From Desulfobacterales bacterium (lineage in GTDB: Bacteria; Desulfobacterota; Desulfobulbia; Desulfobulbales; BM004), in the NCBI GenBank assembly GCA_021647905.1, contig JAKITW010000014.1, positions 1-46,465 on the forward strand: DNA of 46,465 nucleotides, written 5' to 3'. Every line of letters starts with the position of its first letter. Position 1 is the stretch's first letter. This document shows positions 4,905-46,465 of this stretch, piece after piece. The position numbers were made by a program, and so were the translations under genes. Under the pieces are notes generated by a model. The model did not search any database and had not been told where the DNA came from. It saw nothing but the letters and a program-made list of their open reading frames with translations.

Positions 4905-5798
4905 ATGAAAAAACTATTGGTTACATATCTCGGCCTGACGCTCCTGGGCCTGATGATTAACGGACCGGTAACAGCAGCCGACAAGATCCTCACCATGTCC
5001 ACCACCACCTCAACCCAGGCCTCGGGGCTGCTCGACCGGCTCCTGCCGGAGTTTGAAAAAGATACCGGCATCAAGGTCAAGGTGATTGCCAAGGGGACCG
5101 GCGCCGCCATCCGCGACGGCATGGACGGCAACGTGGATATCATTTTTGTCCATGCCAAAAACCGGGAGGAGGAGTTTGTCGTCCGGGGTTTCGGCACCAG
5201 GCGGTATGCGGTGATGCACAACGATTTCCTGATCATCGGCCCGGCAAACGACCCGGCCGGAATCAAGGGGATGAAAAATGCCGCCGCGGCCCTGGGAAAG
5301 ATCGCTACGGCCCGGGCCCTTTTCATCTCCCGGGGCGACGATTCCGGCACCCATACCAAGGAGCAGCAACTCTGGCGCGCTTCCGGAGTCAGGCTGGCCG
5401 AACAGCATCAAACCATCGTCAAAAAGGGCAAAGAGAAAAAAATAACCTCTCAGCGGCCGGCCGGTTCCAACGGCTGGTACCTGTCCATCGGCCAGGGCAT
5501 GGGCAAGACCGCCACCTTTGCCGATGAGAAGCAGGCCTACACCCTGATCGACCGGGGCACCTACATCAAGTACAGGTACGGCCGGACCCCGGCCATCGAC
5601 CTGGTCCCCCTGGTTGAAGGGGACCCGGCCCTGGCCAACCCCTACGGGATCATCCCGGTCGATCCGGCCCGGCATCCCCATGTGGATTACGATCTGGCCG
5701 AGCGCTTCGCCCGCTGGATCACCTCGTCCCGGGGCCAGAAGCTGATCAACAACTACCGGTTGATCGGCAGGCAGCTCTTTTATCCGGACGCAAGATAA
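4905..5798 (+). CDS. tupA: Tungstate ABC transporter substrate-binding protein
   Basis: Periplasmic binding protein of 297 residues that captures tungstate for the TupBC importer. An N-terminal signal peptide (MKKLL, then a hydrophobic stretch, cut near AxA at about residue 25) precedes the mature chain. The TTTSTQASGLLD segment holds the TTTS oxyanion-binding motif typical of TupA rather than ModA, and GTGAA, VHAKNREEEFV and NDFLIIGP are family hallmarks. It is first of three genes, tupA-tupB-tupC. Tungstate supply fits the nearby formate dehydrogenase, which in such anaerobes may carry tungsten. No strong ribosome site precedes the ATG. Confidence 0.93.
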   Translation: MKKLLVTYLGLTLLGLMINGPVTAADKILTMSTTTSTQASGLLDRLLPEFEKDTGIKVKVIAKGTGAAIRDGMDGNVDIIFVHAKNREEEFVVRGFGTRRYAVMHNDFLIIGPANDPAGIKGMKNAAAALGKIATARALFISRGDDSGTHTKEQQLWRASGVRLAEQHQTIVKKGKEKKITSQRPAGSNGWYLSIGQGMGKTATFADEKQAYTLIDRGTYIKYRYGRTPAIDLVPLVEGDPALANPYGIIPVDPARHPHVDYDLAERFARWITSSRGQKLINNYRLIGRQLFYPDAR

Positions 5799-5877
5799 AA
5801 AAACTTTGCAGACCCGGCGGCCCGGCCTGAGATTCCGCATTGCCGAATGACCGCCGATCAAGCCGCGAACCGAGCCC

Positions 5878-6582
5878 ATGGACCTTCTCCTTGACAGTCT
5901 GGCATCCGCTGTTCATCTGCTCCTGTCCCTGGATTCCGAGCTTTTCATCATCGTCGGGGTCTCTGTCTGGGTAAGCTGCAGTTCAACGGTCATTGCCTCG
6001 CTGATCGGCCTTCCCCTTGCCTCCCTGATCGCCTTTTCCACCTTTCCGGGCAAGCGGCTGACCATCACCTGCCTGAACACCCTGCTGGCCATGCCCACAG
6101 TGGTTATCGGACTGCTGGTCTATTCCTTTATCTCCCGCCGGGGCATCCTCGGCCCCATGGAACTGCTCTACACCCGGAAGGCGATTATCATCGGCCAGGT
6201 GCTGCTGATCATCCCCCTGGTGACCACCCTGACCATTGCCGCCGTCAACCGGATCGACAAACGCTACCGCAATACCGCCCTGACCCTGGGCGCCAACCGG
6301 TTGCAGATGGCGCTGGTCATCTTTAAGGAGGCACGGTACGGGATCATCGCCGCAATCATTGCCGCCTTTGGCCGGGTGATCGCCGAGATCGGCATCTCGA
6401 TGATGCTGGGCGGCAATGTCCGGGGCTTTACCCGCACCATGACCACGGCCATGGCCCTTGAATACGACAAGGGCGAGTTCACCCTGGCGGTGGCCCTGGG
6501 AATCGTCCTGCTCAGTCTGGCCCTTGGCATTAATCTGCTGTTTCACTTTTTCCAGGGCAGGCTGCAATCCAATGCTGTATGA
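5878..6582 (+). CDS. tupB: Tungstate ABC transporter permease
   Basis: Inner-membrane permease of 234 residues with about five or six hydrophobic segments. The cytoplasmic coupling loop that contacts the ATPase is visible as the segment around TLGANRLQMALVIFKEAR, followed by GRVIAEIGISMMLGGN, a typical TupB/ModB-like signature. It lies 79 bases after tupA and overlaps the start of tupC by 11 bases, indicating translational coupling within one operon. Confidence 0.93.
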   Translation: MDLLLDSLASAVHLLLSLDSELFIIVGVSVWVSCSSTVIASLIGLPLASLIAFSTFPGKRLTITCLNTLLAMPTVVIGLLVYSFISRRGILGPMELLYTRKAIIIGQVLLIIPLVTTLTIAAVNRIDKRYRNTALTLGANRLQMALVIFKEARYGIIAAIIAAFGRVIAEIGISMMLGGNVRGFTRTMTTAMALEYDKGEFTLAVALGIVLLSLALGINLLFHFFQGRLQSNAV

Positions 6583-7243
6583 ACTCTCCGGACTGACCCG
6601 GGTCTTTAACAGCCGGACTGTCCTCGACATCCCGGACCTCACCATGGAAAAGGGGCGGATCCATGCCCTGCTGGGGCCCAACGGTTCGGGCAAGACCACC
6701 CTGCTCAACCTGCTCGCCTTTCTCGACGCGCCGACCGCCGGGACCATCTCCTTCGGCTCCGGCCCGGTGCGTTTCACCGAGTCCTTTCTACTGCCCCTGC
6801 GGCGCCGGGTTGTGCTGGTTGATCAACACCCGATCCTCTTCACCGCGTCGGTGTACGCCAACCTCGAGTTCGGCTTGAAGATCCGCAGGATCAGGAAAGA
6901 GGTTCGCGATAAAAAGATCCGGGCCGCCCTGGAGATGGTCGATATGCAGGACTTCATCCATGCCCGGGGCCAGACCCTGTCCGGCGGCGAGACAAAAAGA
7001 ATCGCCCTGGCCCGGGCCCTGGTGCTTGAGCCGGAGGTGCTGCTCTGCGACGAACCCCTTGCCAATGTTGATGCCGGGAACCAGGAACGGATTCTGGCCA
7101 TCCTCGGCCGGATTAACACCCTGCAGCGGACATCGATAATATTCTCAAGCCATGACCAGCCCCTGGCCGAGCGGCTGGCCCGGAACAAACTCTATCTGGA
7201 TAACGGCCGCCTGGCCGCGAAGAGCGCCTCTCCCCCTTTCTGA
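6572..7243 (+). CDS. tupC: Tungstate ABC transporter ATP-binding protein
   Basis: ATPase of 223 residues that energises TupB. Motifs in order: Walker A GPNGSGKTT, Q-loop VDQHPILF, signature LSGGE, Walker B VLLCDEPLANVD, and the switch His in SSHD. The start is taken at ATG 6572 (MLYELSGL), inside the end of tupB. A longer in-frame extension to 6458 would only read tupB in another frame. It lacks the C-terminal molybdate-binding (TOBE) domain found in ModC, consistent with the Tup type. Confidence 0.93.
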   Translation: MLYELSGLTRVFNSRTVLDIPDLTMEKGRIHALLGPNGSGKTTLLNLLAFLDAPTAGTISFGSGPVRFTESFLLPLRRRVVLVDQHPILFTASVYANLEFGLKIRRIRKEVRDKKIRAALEMVDMQDFIHARGQTLSGGETKRIALARALVLEPEVLLCDEPLANVDAGNQERILAILGRINTLQRTSIIFSSHDQPLAERLARNKLYLDNGRLAAKSASPPF

Positions 7244-7291: not shown

Positions 7292-7327
7292 TTGACAATC
7301 AGCAACAAAACATATAAATATATGTTT
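7292..7327 (+). promoter_or_regulatory. Promoter with overlapping palindromic operator of the ArsR-selenoprotein operon
   Basis: TTGACA (7292-7297), a 17-base spacer and TAAATA (7315-7320) make a near-consensus sigma70 promoter. A perfect palindrome, AAACATATA-AA-TATATGTTT (7308-7327), covers the -10 box. AT-rich inverted repeats of this kind are typical ArsR-family operators. Repressor binding here would block RNA polymerase, so autoregulation by the adjacent gene is the simple reading. Confidence 0.75.
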
Positions 7328-7401
7328 ATATGTTTTTAAACTTAATAGGGCCCGGGTTTGACGGAAACCCGGAGCATATTCTTCCACCCAAGGAGAAACC
7401 C

Positions 7402-7734
7402 TTGCGAAAAAAAACCGGGCAAGCAAAAAGCAAAGAGGTAAATCTCCAGGCCGCGGCCTTTCTGGCCAAGACCATGGCCGACGAAAACCGCCTGCGAATT
7501 ATTCAATCGTTGCACAAAGGCAAAAAACCGGTCTCCCGCATTGTCGAGGAACTGGGGATTTCCCAGCCCCTGGTATCCCATCACCTCAAGGAACTCAAGC
7601 GTTCGCTCCTGGTCAAGGTTGAACGGAACGGCCCCTTTATCAACTATGAACTGACCGACCAGCGGGTCACTGAAATACTCAGCGGCCTGAGCCGGCTGGC
7701 AACCGATCTACTCACCAACCGAACCACCTTTTAA
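7402..7734 (+). CDS. ArsR-family transcriptional regulator without cysteines
   Basis: Winged-helix repressor of 110 residues. The core LAKTMADENRLRIIQSL, then VSRIVEELGISQPLVSHHLKEL (recognition helix), is classic ArsR. The TTG at 7402 is chosen as start because AGGAG lies six bases before it. The upstream ATG at 7330 sits in the AT-rich operator region and has no ribosome site. No Cys is present, so the usual ArsR/SmtB thiol metal sites are absent and the signal is unknown. It is first in an operon with two UGA-containing genes and a TauE/SafE permease; the gap to the next gene is 20 bases. Confidence 0.88.
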   Translation: MRKKTGQAKSKEVNLQAAAFLAKTMADENRLRIIQSLHKGKKPVSRIVEELGISQPLVSHHLKELKRSLLVKVERNGPFINYELTDQRVTEILSGLSRLATDLLTNRTTF

Positions 7735-7754
7735 CGTCAAAGGGAGGAGTACCA

Positions 7755-8216
7755 ATGAAGGAACTTCTGCAGATAGTTGAAAAAATGGACCCAAAAGAGG
7801 CGATGACCGCGCTTGCCGGCGCCGTGTCCACCCTTTTCAAACATATTGACGAGAATGCCAAGCTTGACTTTGTTGTCTCCCTGATCGGTGATTCCGGCAA
7901 CGACAAGATATCGAGCATGGTCAATCTCTGACTGGCTGAATGCATGGACGAAGGTGTCGATCCAACGCGTATGTGCCAGAGCCTGGTGGACAAGGTGGCC
8001 CAATCCAGACAGCTGCAGGCGGTCACCGACCCGGAGATCCTGCCCCTGTTCGAGGACTGGTTCGAGGAGCTGGAAAACGAGGTGCTTTCCTTTGCCAGGG
8101 ATAATCATCCCGTAACCGCGAATGGCCTGGCCGAGGGTATCGGTTTGTCGCGCGCCGGGGCGCATTTTATGCTCAGCAAGCTCAAACGGGAAGGAAAAAT
8201 TCAAACAGGAGAATGA
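7755..8216 (+). CDS. Predicted novel selenoprotein with C-terminal winged-helix-like region
   Basis: Reading from ATG 7755, which has the strong ribosome site GGGAGGAG five to six bases before it, gives 58 codons and then an in-frame UGA at 7929. The same frame continues without break to a stop at 8216, 153 residues in all. A standard annotation would call either a 58-residue stub or a short gene from 7944. The UGA lies in the context MVNL-U-LAECMDEG, giving Sec59 with Cys63 four residues on and another Cys at 74. A SECIS-like hairpin follows. The N-terminal part is helical; residues about 113-150 (NHPVTANGLAEGIGLS.. LSKLKREGKI) resemble a winged helix. I do not recognise the family. It lies between an ArsR regulator and a thioredoxin-like selenoprotein, four bases upstream of the latter. 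A plain nonsense mutation is the alternative, but matching evidence in the next gene argues against it. Confidence 0.75.
7929..7964 (+). promoter_or_regulatory. SECIS-like hairpin of the first ArsR-operon selenoprotein
   Basis: After UGA 7929-7931, TGGACGA (7945-7951) pairs with TCG-A-TCCA (7957-7964, one bulged A at 7960), leaving the loop AGGUG. The GG of the loop is 25-26 bases from the start of the UGA. GG in the apical loop at this distance is the expected SelB recognition feature. Confidence 0.65.
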
Positions 8217-8220
8217 CGCC

Positions 8221-8505
8221 ATGTTGCTGGTACGCTTTTTTCTCAACGAACCGCAGGGGAAAACCTGACGCCATTTCGAGGAAATGCTGCCCAGGCTGGG
8301 CAAACGGTTTGACATCGATATTACGGTTATTTCAAAACCGCGCCACGAGTTCCAGTCGCTTGACCATGACGCCCTCGGCCTGCCAAGGGCGCCAGCGGTT
8401 ATGATCGGCGACCGGGTCATTGTGGCGGGCGCGGATATCAGCGAGGAACAGCTGGCGGCCGCGATAGGGTTGCAGCTTGCAGAGGCCGGGGACGGGCAGC
8501 CGTGA
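8221..8505 (+). CDS. Predicted thioredoxin-fold selenoprotein
   Basis: ATG 8221 follows AGGAGA by about eight bases and lies four bases after the previous stop. The frame has UGA at codon 16 (8266) and then stays open to 8505, giving 94 residues. The first strand MLLVRFFLNEPQGKT leads to Sec16 at the start of a helix (U-RHFEEMLPRLGKRF). LPRAPAVMIGDRVI has the Ala-Pro of a thioredoxin-fold cis-proline loop. Sec thus sits where glutaredoxin or thioredoxin active-site cysteines are, but without a CxxC partner, since the chain has no Cys. A redox or selenium/sulfur-transfer role is inferred. Its stop overlaps the GTG start of the permease (GTGA), so the two are translationally coupled. Truncation by a nonsense mutation is the alternative. 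Confidence 0.78.
8266..8302 (+). promoter_or_regulatory. SECIS-like hairpin of the thioredoxin-fold selenoprotein
   Basis: UGA 8266-8268 is followed by TGCCC-AGGCT-GGGCA (8288-8302), a perfect stem with an AGGCU loop whose GG is 29-30 bases from the UGA. The same AGGCU loop occurs after the UGA of the SelW-like gene at 30728. Confidence 0.72.
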
Positions 8506-10196
8506 AAAGGGCGCTCCTGAACCGTAACCCGCTGTTTTTGCTGAGCCTTGTTATCGGAATGTTGTTTTTCCCCCCGCTGCCCGGGGCAGCGGCAATGGAG
8601 GCCACCTTGTCCGGCCGGGATATCGTGGCCGGCGATCCGGTTACCGTAACCGGTTCAATCGAACCGGGCCGGGAGCTTTACGTGGTTGTCTGTACGGAAC
8701 AGACGTTCAAGGCCGCAGACTCGCCGGGTATTACGGAAAAGAAAAAACTGGCCGCGCTTTTCCAGGACACAACCATCCCGCCGGTTTATTACGTCCTGTC
8801 AAGCGACCCGCAGACCCTTGCCCTGCCGCAATCGGTTGAAAAGGGGCAGGAAGAAGGTCTGTTCGCCTTTCCGCCCTTCAGGTATACGGTGGGGGTCAAT
8901 AAAATAAAAAAATGGGCCGAGATCGACCCTGGGGTGAAAACCATGCTCGGGCCGGTGACCACCGGCGAGCAGTGGAAGTTTCTGACCTATGCCCATGAAA
9001 CCAGGTTCGGGATCAACACCATTACCAAGGAGAAACAGGCCGGCGGCGGCAACGCCAGAATGGTGCTTGCCGATTTCAGCCGGCAACCCGAACCATGGAA
9101 CCGGGGTGTCACTGTTTCGCTGGATAAGAAAAGCGGGGCCTTTTCCATTACCATGACCCCCTACGGCAACCTTGCGCCAGGCACCGAGATGGCGGTTTAC
9201 GTGAACGGCGAGCGGGCCGGCGGGTTTGTCATCAAGCCTTCGGGTTTTTATTTTTCCATTGCCAATACCTATGTGAATCCCCTGGTGGTCGTGCTGGGCA
9301 GTTTTCTGATCGGCGTGCTTTTTGTTATCATGGGCGCGGCCGGCGGTCTCTTTACCGCTGCTTTTCAGATTACGATCCTCGGCACCATGGGCCCCCTGGG
9401 GGTGAACGCCGCCAATACCATCAAACCAACCAATCTTTTTCTCACCCTGTTGTCACCGGTCACCGGGCTGGGCAACTATTTTCGCGAAAAACGGTTTGCC
9501 TGGCCGCTCGGCCTCTTTTTTGCCGCCGGCATTGTGGTTGGCGCCTTCTGGCTGGGCCCGGAATATTCAGCCAAATACCTGCCCATGAAGGCCTACAAGT
9601 TCTATCTCGGTATTGTCTGTCTGATAATCGGCATCAAGCTGTTCTGGGAAAGCCTGCCCAGCGCCATTGCCAGGAAGAAACAAACAAAGGCGATTGTCGA
9701 ACGTTTTAACCGGGCCATGAAAAAGGCCAGGCAAGAGGGCACCGCCATCCAGATCGGCAGGGTTGAGTTTGAAAAATTCAGCCTGACCCGGTTCGACATG
9801 AAGTTCTGGGGCGAGACCTTTGTGGCCCGGCCGTTGCTCATGCTGGTCAGCGGGGTGTTCATGGGAATGATCGCCTCCTCCTTCGGGGTGGGCGGCGGTT
9901 TCATGTTCATGCCGTTCATGGCCTCTGTTCTCGGCTATCCCATGTATCTGGCAGTACCCATCGCCCTGGCCGGCACCTTTGCCACCTCCCTGGGCGGGAT
10001 CAGCAGGTACACGATGATGGGGTACTCGCCGGACTGGCTGATGGCCGCCTGTATTGCCGTGGGCGCCATCGGCGGCGGCATGGTGGGGCCGAAGATCCAG
10101 AAACGGCTGCCCGAGGTCTTTCTGAAGCGGATGCTGGCCCTGGCGTTGATCATAGTATTTATGAAATACACCGGAGCGCTGCCCTTTCTGCGCTGA
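8502..10196 (+). CDS. TauE/SafE-family permease with large N-terminal extracytoplasmic domain
   Basis: Membrane protein of 564 residues. A signal-like N-terminus (hydrophobic to the AAA at about residue 31) is followed by about 200 residues of soluble, presumably periplasmic, sequence, then TauE/SafE-type membrane segments from about residue 258 (GSFLIGVLFVIMGAAGGLFTAAFQI). A charged cytoplasmic loop lies near 385-440, and a second repeat contains SSFGVGGGFMFMPFMASVLGYP. The family exports sulfite, sulfoacetate and other small anions; the substrate here is unknown. The GTG start at 8502 overlaps the stop of the thioredoxin-like selenoprotein. The operon context suggests transport of a sulfur or selenium oxyanion or a related toxic species, which is inference. 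Confidence 0.85.
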   Translation: MKRALLNRNPLFLLSLVIGMLFFPPLPGAAAMEATLSGRDIVAGDPVTVTGSIEPGRELYVVVCTEQTFKAADSPGITEKKKLAALFQDTTIPPVYYVLSSDPQTLALPQSVEKGQEEGLFAFPPFRYTVGVNKIKKWAEIDPGVKTMLGPVTTGEQWKFLTYAHETRFGINTITKEKQAGGGNARMVLADFSRQPEPWNRGVTVSLDKKSGAFSITMTPYGNLAPGTEMAVYVNGERAGGFVIKPSGFYFSIANTYVNPLVVVLGSFLIGVLFVIMGAAGGLFTAAFQITILGTMGPLGVNAANTIKPTNLFLTLLSPVTGLGNYFREKRFAWPLGLFFAAGIVVGAFWLGPEYSAKYLPMKAYKFYLGIVCLIIGIKLFWESLPSAIARKKQTKAIVERFNRAMKKARQEGTAIQIGRVEFEKFSLTRFDMKFWGETFVARPLLMLVSGVFMGMIASSFGVGGGFMFMPFMASVLGYPMYLAVPIALAGTFATSLGGISRYTMMGYSPDWLMAACIAVGAIGGGMVGPKIQKRLPEVFLKRMLALALIIVFMKYTGALPFLR

Positions 10197-10221: not shown

Positions 10222-11802
10222 TCATGCAAAGGGTGACCGCAGACCGAATTTCTTGATCCGGTAACCGATCTGGCGCTGGGTCAGTCCCAGTTCCCGGGCC
10301 GCCCGGGCCTGTACCCAGCCATGGCGGTTGAGCGCGGCCTCGACCTGCTGCCTCTCCAGCGCCTGCAGGGACTGGGTCTGGGCGCCCATTGCCGGCTGGG
10401 CAAGGGATGGGGCCGGGGCCAGCGGCACCATCCGCTCTTCCGGCTCCGCCTTCATGAATGAGGGCAGGTCCGCCATTTTCACCAGGTTGCGGTCCGCCAT
10501 GATCACCAGCCGTTCGATCAGGTTCTGCAGTTCCCGGACATTGCCGGGCCAGCGGTAGGTACGGAGAAACTCCAATACCTCCCGGGAAAGGGCCACCCTC
10601 CGTTTATTCTCCCGGTTGCTCAACTGGAGAAAATGTTCGAGCAGAAAGGGAATATCCTCGCGCCGGTCCCTTAAGGGCGGCAGGATGATCGGCACCACGT
10701 TGAGCCGGTAATAGAGATCGGCCCGGAAGGTGTTTTGAAGCACTGCCTGTTCCAGGCTGAGGTTGGTGGCGGCAATGATCCGGACATCCACCCGGATGGT
10801 CCGGGTGCCGCCCAGCCGCTCGAACTGCTTCTCCTGCAGAACCCGGAGCAGCTTGGCCTGGAGCTCCAGCGGCAACTCGCCGATCTCGTCCAGGAACAAG
10901 GTACCCTGGTCGGCCAGTTCAAAACGGCCCAGCTTGATTCCAGTGGCCCCGGTAAAGGCCCCCTTTTCATGGCCGAGCAGTTCACTTTCAAGCAGGTTCT
11001 CCGGCAGGGCCGCGCAGTTGACCTTGATGTAGGGCCGATCCCGCCGGGGACTGGCCAGGTGTACGGCCCGGGCCACCAGTTCCTTGCCCGTGCCTGATTC
11101 GCCCAGCAGCAACACGCTGGCCGTGCTCGGGGCCACCTTGTCAATGGTCCGGAAGACCTCCTGCATCGGCTTGCTCTGGCCGATGATATTATGATGACCG
11201 AACCTCTTTTTCAACTCCTCCTTGAGTGACAGGTTCTCGGCCACCAACCGTTCTTCTTTCTTTTTAATCGCATTGTGCAGGTTGAGAAACTGGGCGATCA
11301 GCATGGCCACCACGGTGAGGAACCGGATGTCCTCTTCAAAGGAGATCTCCGGGCCAAAGAGCCGGTCCACGGTCAGAACCCCCACCGGCTCCTCAAGCAG
11401 GATGACCGGAACGCCGATAAAGGAGGTTTCGCCCTTGGAAAAGCGGGCCCTGGCCCCGGTCCGGTTCAGAAAAAGCGGCTCTTCGGCAATATCCGGCACC
11501 ACGCAGGGGTATGTCTCCTGGAATATCTTGCCGATGATCCCCTCGCCCACCCGGTAGATACCCCGTTCCCTCTCCTTGGCAGTGAGCCCGTACGAGGCCC
11601 TGATCACCAACCGCCGGTCTTTTTCATCCATCAGCACCAGGGTGGCCCGCTCCATCCGCAGGGTCTCGTGCAGGATGCCCAGGATCTCGCCCAGGGCCCG
11701 GTCCAGGTCCAGGGCCGAGCCGATCATCTGGGCAATCTGATAAAGGGCCTGGATTTCCTGGGCCTCGATGTTCGGTGTCTTGTCACTGTTGTGCTGAATC
11801 AT
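10222..11802 (-). CDS. nifA: NifA, sigma54-dependent activator of nitrogen fixation
   Basis: Activator of 526 residues. GAF sensor domain (about 20-180), AAA+ domain with Walker A GESGTGKE (234-241) and the sigma54-contacting GAFTGA loop (281-286), and a C-terminal Fis-type helix-turn-helix ([27 protein letters not shown]). The linker between the AAA+ and DNA-binding domains has no cysteines, unlike the oxygen-sensing NifA class. It is divergent from nifH; a matching NifA binding site and sigma54 promoter lie in front of nifH. It converges with the permease gene 25 bases away. Confidence 0.95.
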
Positions 11803-11995
11803 TGCCTGGCCTTTTATATATTTTTAACGATAAGTCACCATCCTGGCTTGCAAAATCCATTCCGAAACGTGGAACCAGGGATTCTTTTTTTCACCGGACA
11901 GATTATCCCCGGTTTTTCATCATGTTATCCATTGTCCGGACCAGGCGGCAGTATAACTTCGCCCGGCCGGCGGTTAATCATTTTACTCCAAAAAT

Positions 11996-12050
11996 GTAAC
12001 AAAATGATTTTCAAGGGACCACAAAAACTACAATATTGTCATTTTGTTAC
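11996..12050. repeat. Perfect 12-bp inverted repeat between nifA and nifH
   Basis: GTAACAAAATGA (11996-12007) is exactly complementary to TCATTTTGTTAC (12039-12050), with 31 bases between. It lies about 195 bases upstream of nifA and 160 bases upstream of the nifH promoter. It could be a paired binding site for a regulator, possibly acting on nifA; no known box is recognised. Confidence 0.6.
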
Positions 12051-12093
12051 CTGGCCGGGCTGATTGACAAAGATGACGAGATCTCTTCATTTT

Positions 12094-12109
12094 TGTCGCA
12101 TTATGCACA
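12094..12109 (+). promoter_or_regulatory. NifA upstream activator sequence
   Basis: TGT-N10-ACA (TGTCGCATTATGCACA) matches the NifA site exactly. It is centred about 110 bases upstream of the -24 element of the nifH promoter, a normal distance for looping to sigma54 polymerase. Confidence 0.8.
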
Positions 12110-12209
12110 TTAAGGGCGTTTGTTTCTTTCCCCTGTTTTTTCTCCCGCCGACAGCTTATTCCTCAGCAACATACTGATTTTTAATCATAAAAAATAAACA
12201 GTAGCCTCC

Positions 12210-12225
12210 TGGCACGCTGTTTGCC
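12210..12225 (+). promoter_or_regulatory. Sigma54 (-24/-12) promoter of the nifH operon
   Basis: TGGCACG-CTGT-TTGCC matches the consensus TGGCACG-N4-TTGC with correct spacing. It lies about 100 bases before the nifH start and, with the upstream NifA site, accounts for regulation of the whole nif operon. Confidence 0.93.
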
Positions 12226-12230
12226 CTTAG

Positions 12231-13157
<927 letters not shown>

Positions 13158-13159
13158 GC

Positions 13160-13230
13160 GTTCAAACGGTTCAAACAGCTCAAACAGCTCAAACAGTTCA
13201 AACAGCTCAAACAGCTCAAAAGATTCAAAA
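13160..13230 (+). repeat. Tandem 9-base repeats between nifH and nifI1
   Basis: About seven near-identical units of TCAAACAGC/T, decaying at both edges (TCAAACGGT first, TCAAAAGAT last). Related TTCAAACGG-type units occur at 15640-15726 and 18393-18420 in the same operon. Function is unknown; they are in the transcribed leader of nifI1. Confidence 0.9.
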
Positions 13231-13999: not shown

Positions 14000-15637
14000 A
14001 TGGCAACAACAGCGAAAAAGCTGGTGCAGTGGGACCCGGCCGAGGTCAAGGCGGAGTTACTGAAGAAATATCCACCCAAGGTCGCCCGCAAGCGCGCCAA
14101 GCAGATAATGATCAACGAGGCCCTGGAAAACGAGACCCCGGAAATCACCGCCAACGTGCGGGCCACCCCGGGGATCATCACCATGCGCGGCTGCACCTAT
14201 GCCGGCTGCAAGGGCGTTATCATGGGTCCGACCCGCGACATCGTCAACATCACCCACGGCCCCATCGGCTGCGGCTTCTATTCCTGGCTGACCCGGCGCA
14301 ACCAGACCGCTGCCGGGCCGGACGGCGAGAACTACATGCCCTACTGTTTTTCCACCGATATGCAGGACGCCGACATCATCTTCGGCGGTGAGAAGAAACT
14401 GGAAAAGGCGATCCAGGAGGCCTATGACCTGTTCCACCCCAAATCGATCGCCGTGTTCGCCACCTGTCCGGTGGGGCTGATCGGCGACGACATCCATACG
14501 GTGACCAGGCGGATGAAGGAAAAGTTCGGCGACTGCAACGTCTATGCCTTTTCCTGTGAGGGCTATAAGGGCGTCTCCCAGTCCGCCGGTCACCATATTG
14601 CCAACAACCAGGTGTTCCGCCACATTGTCGGTGAAAACGATGCGGTCAAGCCGGGAGACTATAAGATAAACCTGCTCGGCGAGTACAACATCGGCGGTGA
14701 CGGATTCGAGATCGACCGCATCCTCAAGATGTGCGGGATCACCAACATTGCCACCTTTTCCGGCAACTCCACCTATGACCAGTTTGCCTCGGCCCATACC
14801 GCTGATCTGAACACGGTCATGTGCCACCGTTCGATCAACTACGTGGCCGACATGCTGGAGACCAAGTACGGGATCCCCTGGATCAAGGTCAACTTCATCG
14901 GCGCCGGGGCCACGGCCAAGTCGCTCCGCAAGATTGCCGAATACTTTGGCGACCAGAAGCTCATCGACCGGGTGGAAACGGTGATCGCCGAGGAGATGCC
15001 CGCGGTGGAGGAGGCGGCCCAAGAGGTCAGGACCCGCACCGAGGGCAAGACCGCGATGATGTTCGTGGGCGGCTCCCGGGCCCATCATTACCAGGAACTG
15101 TTCAACGAGATGGGGATGAAGACCATCTCGGCCGGCTATGAGTTCGCCCACCGGGACGACTACGAGGGCCGCCAGGTGATCCCCGACCTGAAGCTGGATG
15201 CGGACAGCCGCAACATCGAGGAACTGGTGGTCGAGCCCGACGAGACCCGGTTCAAACCGCGCAAGACCCCGGAGGAGATCAAGGCCCTGGAGAAAGCCGG
15301 GTACCGGTTCAAACATTACGACGGCCTGAATCCGGACATGGACCAGGGCACCCTGATCATTGACGACCTCAACCAGTACGAGGCCGAAAAGCTGGTGGAA
15401 CTGATGAAGCCGGATATCTTCTGCGCCGGGATCAAGGAGAAGTTTTCCATCCAGAAGCTGGGCGTGCCGATGAAGCAGCTGCACAGCTATGACTCCGGCG
15501 GCCCCTATGCCGGGTTCAAGGGCGCGGTCAATTTCTACAAGGAAATCGACCGGCTGGTCAACTCCAGGGTCTGGAGCTACATGAAGGCCCCCTGGCAGGA
15601 GAATCCCCAGCTTTCAGCCGCTTATGTCTGGGAATGA
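14000..15637 (+). CDS. nifD: Nitrogenase MoFe protein alpha chain
   Basis: FeMo-cofactor-bearing subunit, 545 residues. P-cluster ligands Cys65 (MRGCTYAG), Cys91 (GPIGCGFYSW) and Cys156 (ATCPVGL); cofactor ligands Cys275 (NTVMCHRSINY) and the His in KQLHSYDSGGPY; His198/199 in GVSQSAGHHIAN. Compared with the Azotobacter protein it has an insertion of about 50 residues around KPRKTPEEIKALEKAGYRF, as in NifD of clostridia, methanogens and sulfate reducers with nifI genes. AAAGGAG precedes the ATG. The cofactor ligands are those of Mo-type nitrogenase, and no delta-subunit gene follows. Confidence 0.98.
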   Translation: MATTAKKLVQWDPAEVKAELLKKYPPKVARKRAKQIMINEALENETPEITANVRATPGIITMRGCTYAGCKGVIMGPTRDIVNITHGPIGCGFYSWLTRRNQTAAGPDGENYMPYCFSTDMQDADIIFGGEKKLEKAIQEAYDLFHPKSIAVFATCPVGLIGDDIHTVTRRMKEKFGDCNVYAFSCEGYKGVSQSAGHHIANNQVFRHIVGENDAVKPGDYKINLLGEYNIGGDGFEIDRILKMCGITNIATFSGNSTYDQFASAHTADLNTVMCHRSINYVADMLETKYGIPWIKVNFIGAGATAKSLRKIAEYFGDQKLIDRVETVIAEEMPAVEEAAQEVRTRTEGKTAMMFVGGSRAHHYQELFNEMGMKTISAGYEFAHRDDYEGRQVIPDLKLDADSRNIEELVVEPDETRFKPRKTPEEIKALEKAGYRFKHYDGLNPDMDQGTLIIDDLNQYEAEKLVELMKPDIFCAGIKEKFSIQKLGVPMKQLHSYDSGGPYAGFKGAVNFYKEIDRLVNSRVWSYMKAPWQENPQLSAAYVWE

Positions 15638-15639
15638 TA

Positions 15640-15726
15640 GCCGTTCAAACGGCTCAAACTGTTTAAGCGGTTTTTAATGATAACCGTTCGAACGGCTCAA
15701 ACTGTTTAAACGGTTTAAACAGTTAT
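15640..15726 (+). repeat. Palindromic TTCAAACGG-family repeats between nifD and nifK
   Basis: Two related copies of a CCGTTCRAACGGCTCAAACTG unit occur in tandem. The second ends in a perfect stem AACTGTTTAAA-CGG-TTTAAACAGTT (15700-15724). They belong to the same family as the 13160-13230 repeats. In the mRNA the hairpin could affect stability or balance between nifD and nifK; that is inference. Confidence 0.85.
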
Positions 15727-44460: not shown

Positions 44461-46380
44461 ATGAAATCACGCGACATCTACATCAGCAACACACCCCTGG
44501 CCGAGGCCCTTGATCTCTGGCACCAGGCCCTGGCCGATCTTGGCCTGGGCCGGCAGGTGGAAAAAATCCCAGTGGATGACTGCCTGGGCCGGGTCACGGC
44601 AGAACCGGTCTTTGCGCCCCGCTCCACCCCATTCTATAATGCCGCGGCCATGGACGGTATCTGTGTACGTTTCCGCGACACTGTCGGCGCCAGTGAAGCC
44701 GCGCCGATCAGGCTGACCCCGGGACAGTTCATCGAGGTCAACACCGGCAATGCCGTTCCGCAAGGGTTTGACGCGGTGATCATGATCGAGGATATCCAAC
44801 GCACCGACGACAGCGGCGTGGAGATCATTGCCGGCGCCACCCCGTGGCAGCATGTCCGCACCATTGGCGAGGATATCGTGGCCACCGAGCTGATCCTGCC
44901 CGAGGGCCATACCATCCGGCCCATCGACCTGGGCGCCATGCTGGCCACCGGCGTTGATACCGTCACCGTGCATGCCGTCCCGTCGGTGCTGGTGATCCCC
45001 ACGGGCAGCGACGTGGTCCAGCCGGGCGAGGAGCTTGAGCCCGGCAAGATTATCGAGTTCAACTCCAGGATTCTGGCCGGATATCTCCAGGAATGGGGCG
45101 CCGAAGCCCGTCGCGGCCAGGTGGTTGCCGACGATCCCCTGGCCATTAAAGAGGCCCTGCTCGCCGGGGTGGCAGACCATGACCTGGTGATCATCAATGC
45201 CGGGGCCTCGGCCGGGGCCAAGGATTTTACCGCGTCGGTGCTGGCCGGGATCGGCCGGGTGATCGTCCACGGGGTCAATATAAAACCGGGTAAACCGGTG
45301 ATCCTGGCCATTGTTCAGGGGAAACCGGTTATCGGCCTGCCCGGCTATCCGGTATCAGCGGTGCTCACCCAACGGCTCTTTGTCAAGGAACTGATCCATA
45401 CCGCCCTGGGCCAGGCCTCATTGCCGCCGGATCTGCATCCGGCGGTCCTCTCCCGGCCCATCTCCTCAAGGATGGGGGTGGAGGATTTCATCCGGGTCAA
45501 ACTGGGCCGGGTCAACGACACCCTGATCGCAACCCCCACCGGCCGCGGCGCCGGCGCGGTGATGACCCTGGTCCAGGCCGACGGCATCTTGACCATTCCG
45601 GCCGGCAGCGAGGGAATCGGTGGTGGTGAAACAGTCCCGGTCGAGCTGCTCCGCCCCTTGGACGAGGTGGACAACACCCTGGTGTTCATCGGCAGCCACG
45701 ACAATATCCTCGATGTGCTGGCCAATATGCTCCATAAACTGCGGCCGGTTATCCGCCTTTCCTCGGCCCATGTGGGCAGCATGGGCGGGATCATGGCCAT
45801 CCGCCGGGGCGAGGCCCATATTGCCGGCACCCATCTCGTCGATGAAGAGAGCGGTGAATACAATATCCCCTTTATTCAAAAATATCTGGCCGGAATCCCG
45901 CTTAAGCTCATCAACCTCGCCTACCGGGAGCAGGGATTTCTGGTACAGCGCAACAACCCGAAAAATATCAAAGATTTTGAGGACCTGACGCGGGACGATG
46001 TCCGGTTCATCAACCGGCAACAAGGGTCCGGCACCCGGATTTTATTTGATTTGAACCTCAAGAAACAAAACATCCCGGCCGCGCGGATCAACGGCTACGA
46101 CCGGGAGGAGTATACCCACATGAACATCGCCTCCGCGGTTGCCAGCGGGTCGGCCGATACCGGGCTGGCCATCCGCGCCGCGGCCCATGCCCTTGATCTG
46201 GACTTTATCCCGGTTGCCAGCGAGCGCTACGACCTGATCATGCCGATTGCCCATCAGGACGACCCGCGGGTCCGGGCCCTGCTGGAGACCATCCGTCATA
46301 ATGAAAAATTCCGCAACACGGTCACCGGCCTGGGCGGCTATGACCTGCGCGACTGCGGCCGGGTAATGTATGAGCAATAG
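44461..46380 (+). CDS. MoeA fused to a C-terminal periplasmic-binding-protein-like domain
   Basis: 639 residues from ATG 44461; a start at 44440 would begin inside a TGACCCC repeat. Residues 1-400 are MoeA (AAMDGICVRF, IPTGSDVV, INAGASAGAKD, GLPGYPVSA). From about 405 to the end comes a LysR-effector-like binding domain (LVFIGSHDNILDVLANML.. RQQGSGTRILFDLNL.. ASAVASGSADTGLAIRAAA). This fusion is found in many anaerobes and archaea; the extra domain is thought to bind an oxyanion or cofactor intermediate. It lies 89 bases after moeA. Confidence 0.92.
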   Translation: MKSRDIYISNTPLAEALDLWHQALADLGLGRQVEKIPVDDCLGRVTAEPVFAPRSTPFYNAAAMDGICVRFRDTVGASEAAPIRLTPGQFIEVNTGNAVPQGFDAVIMIEDIQRTDDSGVEIIAGATPWQHVRTIGEDIVATELILPEGHTIRPIDLGAMLATGVDTVTVHAVPSVLVIPTGSDVVQPGEELEPGKIIEFNSRILAGYLQEWGAEARRGQVVADDPLAIKEALLAGVADHDLVIINAGASAGAKDFTASVLAGIGRVIVHGVNIKPGKPVILAIVQGKPVIGLPGYPVSAVLTQRLFVKELIHTALGQASLPPDLHPAVLSRPISSRMGVEDFIRVKLGRVNDTLIATPTGRGAGAVMTLVQADGILTIPAGSEGIGGGETVPVELLRPLDEVDNTLVFIGSHDNILDVLANMLHKLRPVIRLSSAHVGSMGGIMAIRRGEAHIAGTHLVDEESGEYNIPFIQKYLAGIPLKLINLAYREQGFLVQRNNPKNIKDFEDLTRDDVRFINRQQGSGTRILFDLNLKKQNIPAARINGYDREEYTHMNIASAVASGSADTGLAIRAAAHALDLDFIPVASERYDLIMPIAHQDDPRVRALLETIRHNEKFRNTVTGLGGYDLRDCGRVMYEQ

Positions 46381-46465
46381 TCAGGGGTCAGGGGTCAGGG
46401 GTCAGGGGTCAGGGGTCAGGGGTCAGGGGTCAGAGTAAATTATAAAGTTTGACTTATTGTCAGGC
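46381..46465. repeat. Tandem GGGGTCA heptamers with conserved tail (right copy)
   Basis: Directly after the stop of the second MoeA gene: TCA plus seven exact GGGGTCA units (46384-46432), then the same AT-rich tail as at 61-94 with G in place of T once. The window ends inside the tail. Two units in the opposite orientation (TGACCCC) occur at 44441-44454. Confidence 0.92.

Follow-up and report, generated by a model that had tools for sequence, protein, structure and literature searches.

ArsR-type repressors such as BigR and SqrR, and the CsoR-type repressor CstR, govern operons that encode sulfur-transfer proteins together with a TauE/SafE-type permease, as is also found at the locus described here. 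To our knowledge, these sulfide- and persulfide-responsive operons contain no selenocysteine (Sec) proteins. The Tso system, for "three-selenoprotein operon", was named by Haft and Tolstoy in 2025 (mSystems e01417-24), as cited in a review (PMC13188914). Its naming is from sequence, and our literature search found neither experiments on the Tso protein set nor an established function for the system. NCBIfam provides Tso models for TsoA (NF045695), TsoB (NF045694), TsoC (NF045708), TsoR (NF045707) and TsoY (NF047643).

The window analysed here is the whole 46,465-nucleotide stretch of DNA, from a Desulfobulbia-type bacterium. Four of its genes, consecutive and on one strand, encode an ArsR-type regulator, two proteins that each have a single UGA within the reading frame, and a permease of the TauE/SafE family (Table 1). 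The first two genes are separated by 20 bases and the next two by 4 bases, and tsoC overlaps tauE by 4 bases; the original prediction of a single-transcript operon was correct to the base in its coordinates, spacings and overlap, and its assignment of the fourth gene is borne out by the Pfam match. Its statement that no system with this layout had been described proved wrong, as the first three genes score above the curated Tso cut-offs (NF045707, NF045695 and NF045708). In the profile search, the read-through frames of TsoA and TsoC match the curated models over almost their whole length. By these scores TsoR, TsoA and TsoC belong to their respective Tso families, and we regard both the Tso identity and the reading of the two UGAs as Sec as close to certain. 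The operon shares with the described Tso system these three proteins and Sec at the same motifs (LULAxC and NEPxGxxU), but differs from it in lacking TsoB and in ending with a long TauE/SafE permease. TsoB, a rhodanese/DsbD fusion and the third selenoprotein, was not found in the genome (best match 26.9 bits, cut-off 805); the operon thus belongs to the Tso family without having three selenoproteins. Judged from its sequence, it is a genuine and conserved TsoB-less Tso variant with a TauE permease, of a kind already known.

Table 1. Positions of the operon features in the window and the evidence for each
Feature	Position	Strand	Evidence
-35-like box TTGACA	7292..7297	+	sequence
Probable TsoR operator CATATAA-N8-TTATATG	7311..7332	+	inverted repeat; near-perfect palindrome spans 7307-7336 and overlaps the likely -10 region
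tsoR, ArsR/SmtB-type repressor	7402..7734	+	TTG start, AAGGAG at 7390; NF045707 158.2 bits (cut-off 115); PF01022 E 1.9e-12
tsoA, LULAxC-motif selenoprotein, 153 aa with read-through	7755..8216	+	NF045695 227.8 bits (cut-off 170)
Sec codon UGA, residue 59 of TsoA	7929..7931	+	U in 72/73 loci, Arg in 1, Cys in 0
SECIS-like hairpin of tsoA, apical loop AGGUG	7945..7964	+	fold; loop 20 nt after UGA
C-terminal winged-helix-like domain of TsoA, about residues 96-150	8040..8204	+	HTH_24, AlphaFold, Foldseek
tsoC, NEPxGxxU-motif selenoprotein, 94 aa, thioredoxin-like fold	8221..8505	+	NF045708 125.9 bits (cut-off 45)
Sec codon UGA, residue 16 of TsoC	8266..8268	+	U in 63/64 copies, Cys in 1
SECIS-like hairpin of tsoC, apical loop GGC	8288..8302	+	fold; loop 25 nt after UGA
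tauE, long TauE/SafE-family permease	8502..10196	+	GTG start; PF01925 E 2.4e-27, 96.6 bits (gathering score 32.6)

The genes just upstream of the operon (4905-7243) encode the substrate-binding protein (PBP_like_2), permease and ATPase of an ABC transporter; by eye, the binding protein looks like that of a tungstate transporter (TupA-type). After the operon (10222-13157) come a GAF/sigma-54 activator resembling NifA and then nifH, so that the operon sits between a transporter and a nitrogenase region. Immediately after nifH is a tandem array of the 9-base unit TCAAACAGC (13162-13229), and a 43-base repeat at 15633-15716 has units similar to it. Both contig ends are close to 7-base tandem repeats, GGGGTCA and GTCAGGG (13-62 and 46380-46433), which may be the reason that the assembly stopped there.

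The two UGAs could in principle be ordinary stops, the mark of two decayed genes or of frameshift or sequencing errors; the one point in favour of this is that the genome is a draft (118 contigs totalling about 2.7 Mb, with 98% completeness). The UGA is retained in 72 of the 73 non-redundant tsoA loci and in 63 of the 64 tsoC copies, and the homologues, from tens of genomes, are conserved on both sides of it. The same genome encodes a full-length SelB (354.5 bits) and two tRNA-Sec genes with a UCA anticodon (74.8 and 56 bits; L009 and L010 on contigs C12 and C61). A SECIS-like hairpin follows each UGA, as predicted. The folding energy of the single hairpins is weak evidence (z = -2.15 for tsoA and -0.11 for tsoC, over 57 nucleotides), and for this reason a family-wide synonymous shuffle was used. 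Among tsoA genes, 85-96% have a hairpin of the bacterial SECIS pattern 3' of the UGA, as do 86-89% of tsoC genes, against 61-76% of synonymous-codon shuffles, a difference that counts as support rather than as an independent probability, since the criteria are loose enough for that share of shuffles to pass and the loci are related. No Rfam family matched the window at the gathering threshold; bacterial SECIS elements are expected to be poorly covered by Rfam. The pseudogene or sequencing-error reading is rejected by the conservation, and we consider ordinary stops here hardly credible. Both UGAs are, on this comparative evidence, conserved Sec codons in a Sec-decoding genome, as the claim of two genuine selenoprotein genes had it. 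The expectation of Sec or Cys at the homologous positions was borne out for Sec at both sites and for Cys only at position 16 of TsoC, in a single copy; position 59 of TsoA is never Cys, and its one exception is an Arg in a second tsoA copy lying beside TsoB and TsoC (L131, G093:C109).

The promoter and palindrome foreseen upstream of tsoR are both present. A generic sigma-70 scan did not call a promoter at 7292, probably because the -10 element overlaps the palindrome at 15-base spacing. Both elements recur in the family: CATATAAA is found in 31 tsoR upstream regions where 0.9 are expected from mononucleotide shuffles, and CTTGACA likewise in 31 against 1.8 expected. The exact CATATAA-N8-TTATATG occurs once in the whole genome, which fits an autoregulated single operon and agrees with the dedicated ArsR-type repressor of the original prediction; sites with two mismatches are no commoner in the genome than those of a reversed control. 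TsoR is encoded directly upstream of tsoA in 71 of the 73 loci. An alignment of the 71 TsoR sequences revealed no conserved Cys (no Cys column exceeds 27 of 71, and the present TsoR has none), no canonical ArsR/SmtB metal site and no conserved His pair outside the recognition helix. TsoR thus differs from the BigR, CstR and SqrR repressors in lacking the conserved Cys pair that senses persulfide there; the alignment shows the pair of the ArsR-type persulfide sensors BigR and SqrR to be missing.

The features of TsoA suggest where sensing may take place instead. Cys63 and Cys74 are invariant among the 73 loci. The Pfam winged-helix model HTH_24 matches 20 of 50 TsoA homologues weakly and is below threshold in the present TsoA. 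AlphaFold models the C-terminus confidently as helical (helices 96-116, 122-129 and 133-145), and the region around Sec is of low confidence (pLDDT 52-64). The best local Foldseek matches of TsoA are winged-helix domains, none of them significant (E 0.15 or worse); its matches to protein A were set aside as chance helical similarity. A sequence search of solved structures gave no informative match to TsoA, to TsoC or to the permease. Since TsoR has no conserved Cys and TsoA combines a predicted winged helix with Sec59, Cys63 and Cys74, TsoA may be the sensor. In its full form, this idea makes TsoA a Sec-based transcriptional sensor, with a Sec59-Cys63(-Cys74) site for reactive sulfur, selenium or soft metals, acting as partner of the Cys-less TsoR in a portable pair placed before varying cargo; we offer it as a speculative possibility.

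The modelled TsoC has a thioredoxin fold (pLDDT 84, pTM 0.72), and its Foldseek matches are led by thioredoxins (best E 6.5e-4) and include the ArsD metallochaperone (E 0.003). In the model, the Sec residue lies in a GxxU motif at the place of the active-site Cys of thioredoxin-like proteins, and a conserved APA loop is found where the cis-proline would be expected. Two genomes of the host's own family carry tsoC without tsoA (G009:C18 and G011:C112).

The permease has an N-terminal signal and soluble domain followed by the TauE membrane domain (residues 264-555). The substrates of TauE/SafE permeases cannot be read from sequence. Contrary to the expectation that the four-gene order would recur elsewhere, it was found with this permease in only one other genome (G015; L021/L097), where a 71% identical protein occupies the same operon slot. 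Long TauE/SafE permeases of the host's class show mostly 60-71% identity over the whole length, but next to the others lie genes for sensor kinases and response regulators, along with a molybdopterin oxidoreductase that includes a ferredoxin subunit (two-component and oxidoreductase genes assigned by eye), rather than tso genes. The two tso-linked permeases form one clade (SH-aLRT 88), whereas the TsoA tree does not join their operons. The two genomes might each have acquired the permease separately; since the permease tree joins them and the TsoA tree does not, one specialised lineage of permeases that was transferred or lost is equally likely. Within a single genus, G016 encodes TsoB in its Tso operon, and G015 encodes the permease there and shows no above-cut-off TsoB. 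In the present draft genome, the missing TsoB could be an assembly gap.

The profile search found TsoA in 75 of 258 genomes of the host's class and in 46 of 395 genomes drawn from the phylum; all of the above-cut-off matches listed for the phylum contain one TGA. TsoC follows tsoA in 51 of the 73 loci and TsoB is present in 29, leaving 44 TsoB-less loci, the present operon among them. The cargo of these 44 comprises type III SQR-like oxidoreductases (12 loci), DsrE-like proteins with UGxC or CGxC (10), TsoY (6), RND proteins (6), SelD (4), and short (4) and long (2) TauE permeases; some contigs end early, so the absences are upper bounds. SQR, TsoY, SelD and TauE occur in none of the 29 loci with TsoB. 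The avoidance between SQR and TsoB has a Fisher P of 0.002, with loci counted without correction for kinship; TauE is rare, with 2 long and 4 short copies in 73 loci, and its absence from loci with TsoB falls short of significance (P = 0.07). These genes suggest that the cargo of TsoB-less operons serves reactive sulfur or selenium chemistry, and the SQR, DsrE, TsoY, SelD and TauE genes of the related operons lend support to the sulfur or selenium theme first proposed for this locus.

A distant branch of the family, TsoA2, retains Sec and Cys63 and has Ser in place of Cys74. At most TsoA2 loci with upstream sequence, a TsoR-like gene in the same orientation precedes TsoA2 by 0.4-1.5 kb; the genes that follow are MerT-like (weak, sub-threshold) and DUF5714 genes and, in one case, a TauE permease. 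In the TsoA2/TsoR2 paralogue operons (L024, L127, L208-L227), the MerT-like frame crosses a UGA (FCU) and a DUF5714 protein is also encoded; these operons may contain further selenoproteins.

TsoA2 and its neighbours fit metals better than sulfur. They bear on the reading of the operon as detoxifying soft metals or metalloids (As, Hg, Cd), in which Sec and Cys of TsoA or TsoC would bind the metal and the permease would aid efflux. The ArsR/SmtB type of the regulator, called a metalloregulator by NCBIfam, the ArsD match of TsoC and the three possible ligands U59, C63 and C74 would agree with such a role. However, TsoR lacks both the conserved Cys and the His motif of known ArsR/SmtB metal sites, the cargo of TsoA operons includes SQR, DsrE, SelD, TauE and rhodanese-DsbD, and no metal ATPase, ArsB or Acr3 was recognised in the characterised cargo; we therefore judge metal detoxification to be rather unlikely. 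The operon might alternatively serve selenium supply or homeostasis, with the permease moving selenite or selenide and the selenoproteins reporting selenium status. SelD lies near tsoA in four loci, in three of which a TauE permease comes next, and making the sensor would itself need selenium. Yet SelD is missing from most Tso operons, including this one, SQR and DsrE indicate sulfur, and the permease's relatives are normally found next to two-component genes and a molybdopterin oxidoreductase that includes a ferredoxin subunit, so this role seems improbable.

The evidence favours a regulated module for the handling of sulfur or selenium, and a role in sulfur or selenium rather than metal is in our view reasonably probable. 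The best overall explanation, held with moderate confidence, is a TsoB-less Tso operon in which TsoR and TsoA exert control and TsoC and the permease handle sulfur or selenium. TsoR would bind the palindrome and repress its own operon only. Any reactive sulfur, selenium or soft-metal(loid) species arriving at the cell would be captured by TsoA at its Sec59/Cys63/Cys74 cluster, which would either relieve repression together with TsoR or pass the species on. TsoC, as a one-Sec thioredoxin-like protein, would reduce or carry the chalcogen, and the TauE permease would move the resulting small sulfur or selenium anion across the membrane. TsoC and the permease might thereby replace the work done in sister operons by TsoB (a rhodanese-DsbD-thioredoxin fusion), SQR, DsrE, SelD or TsoY. 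This exact division of labour among the four proteins is tentative.

The survey separates a fixed TsoR-TsoA pair from exchangeable cargo and provides a candidate operator. A constant pair with changing cargo would be the expected look of a regulatory pair. Retention of Sec at residue 59 of TsoA, with not one Cys among 73 loci, is unusual and suggests a chemistry for which sulfur is no substitute. TsoA is possibly a sensor rather than an enzyme, and Sec-based sensing is the most interesting question that the family raises.
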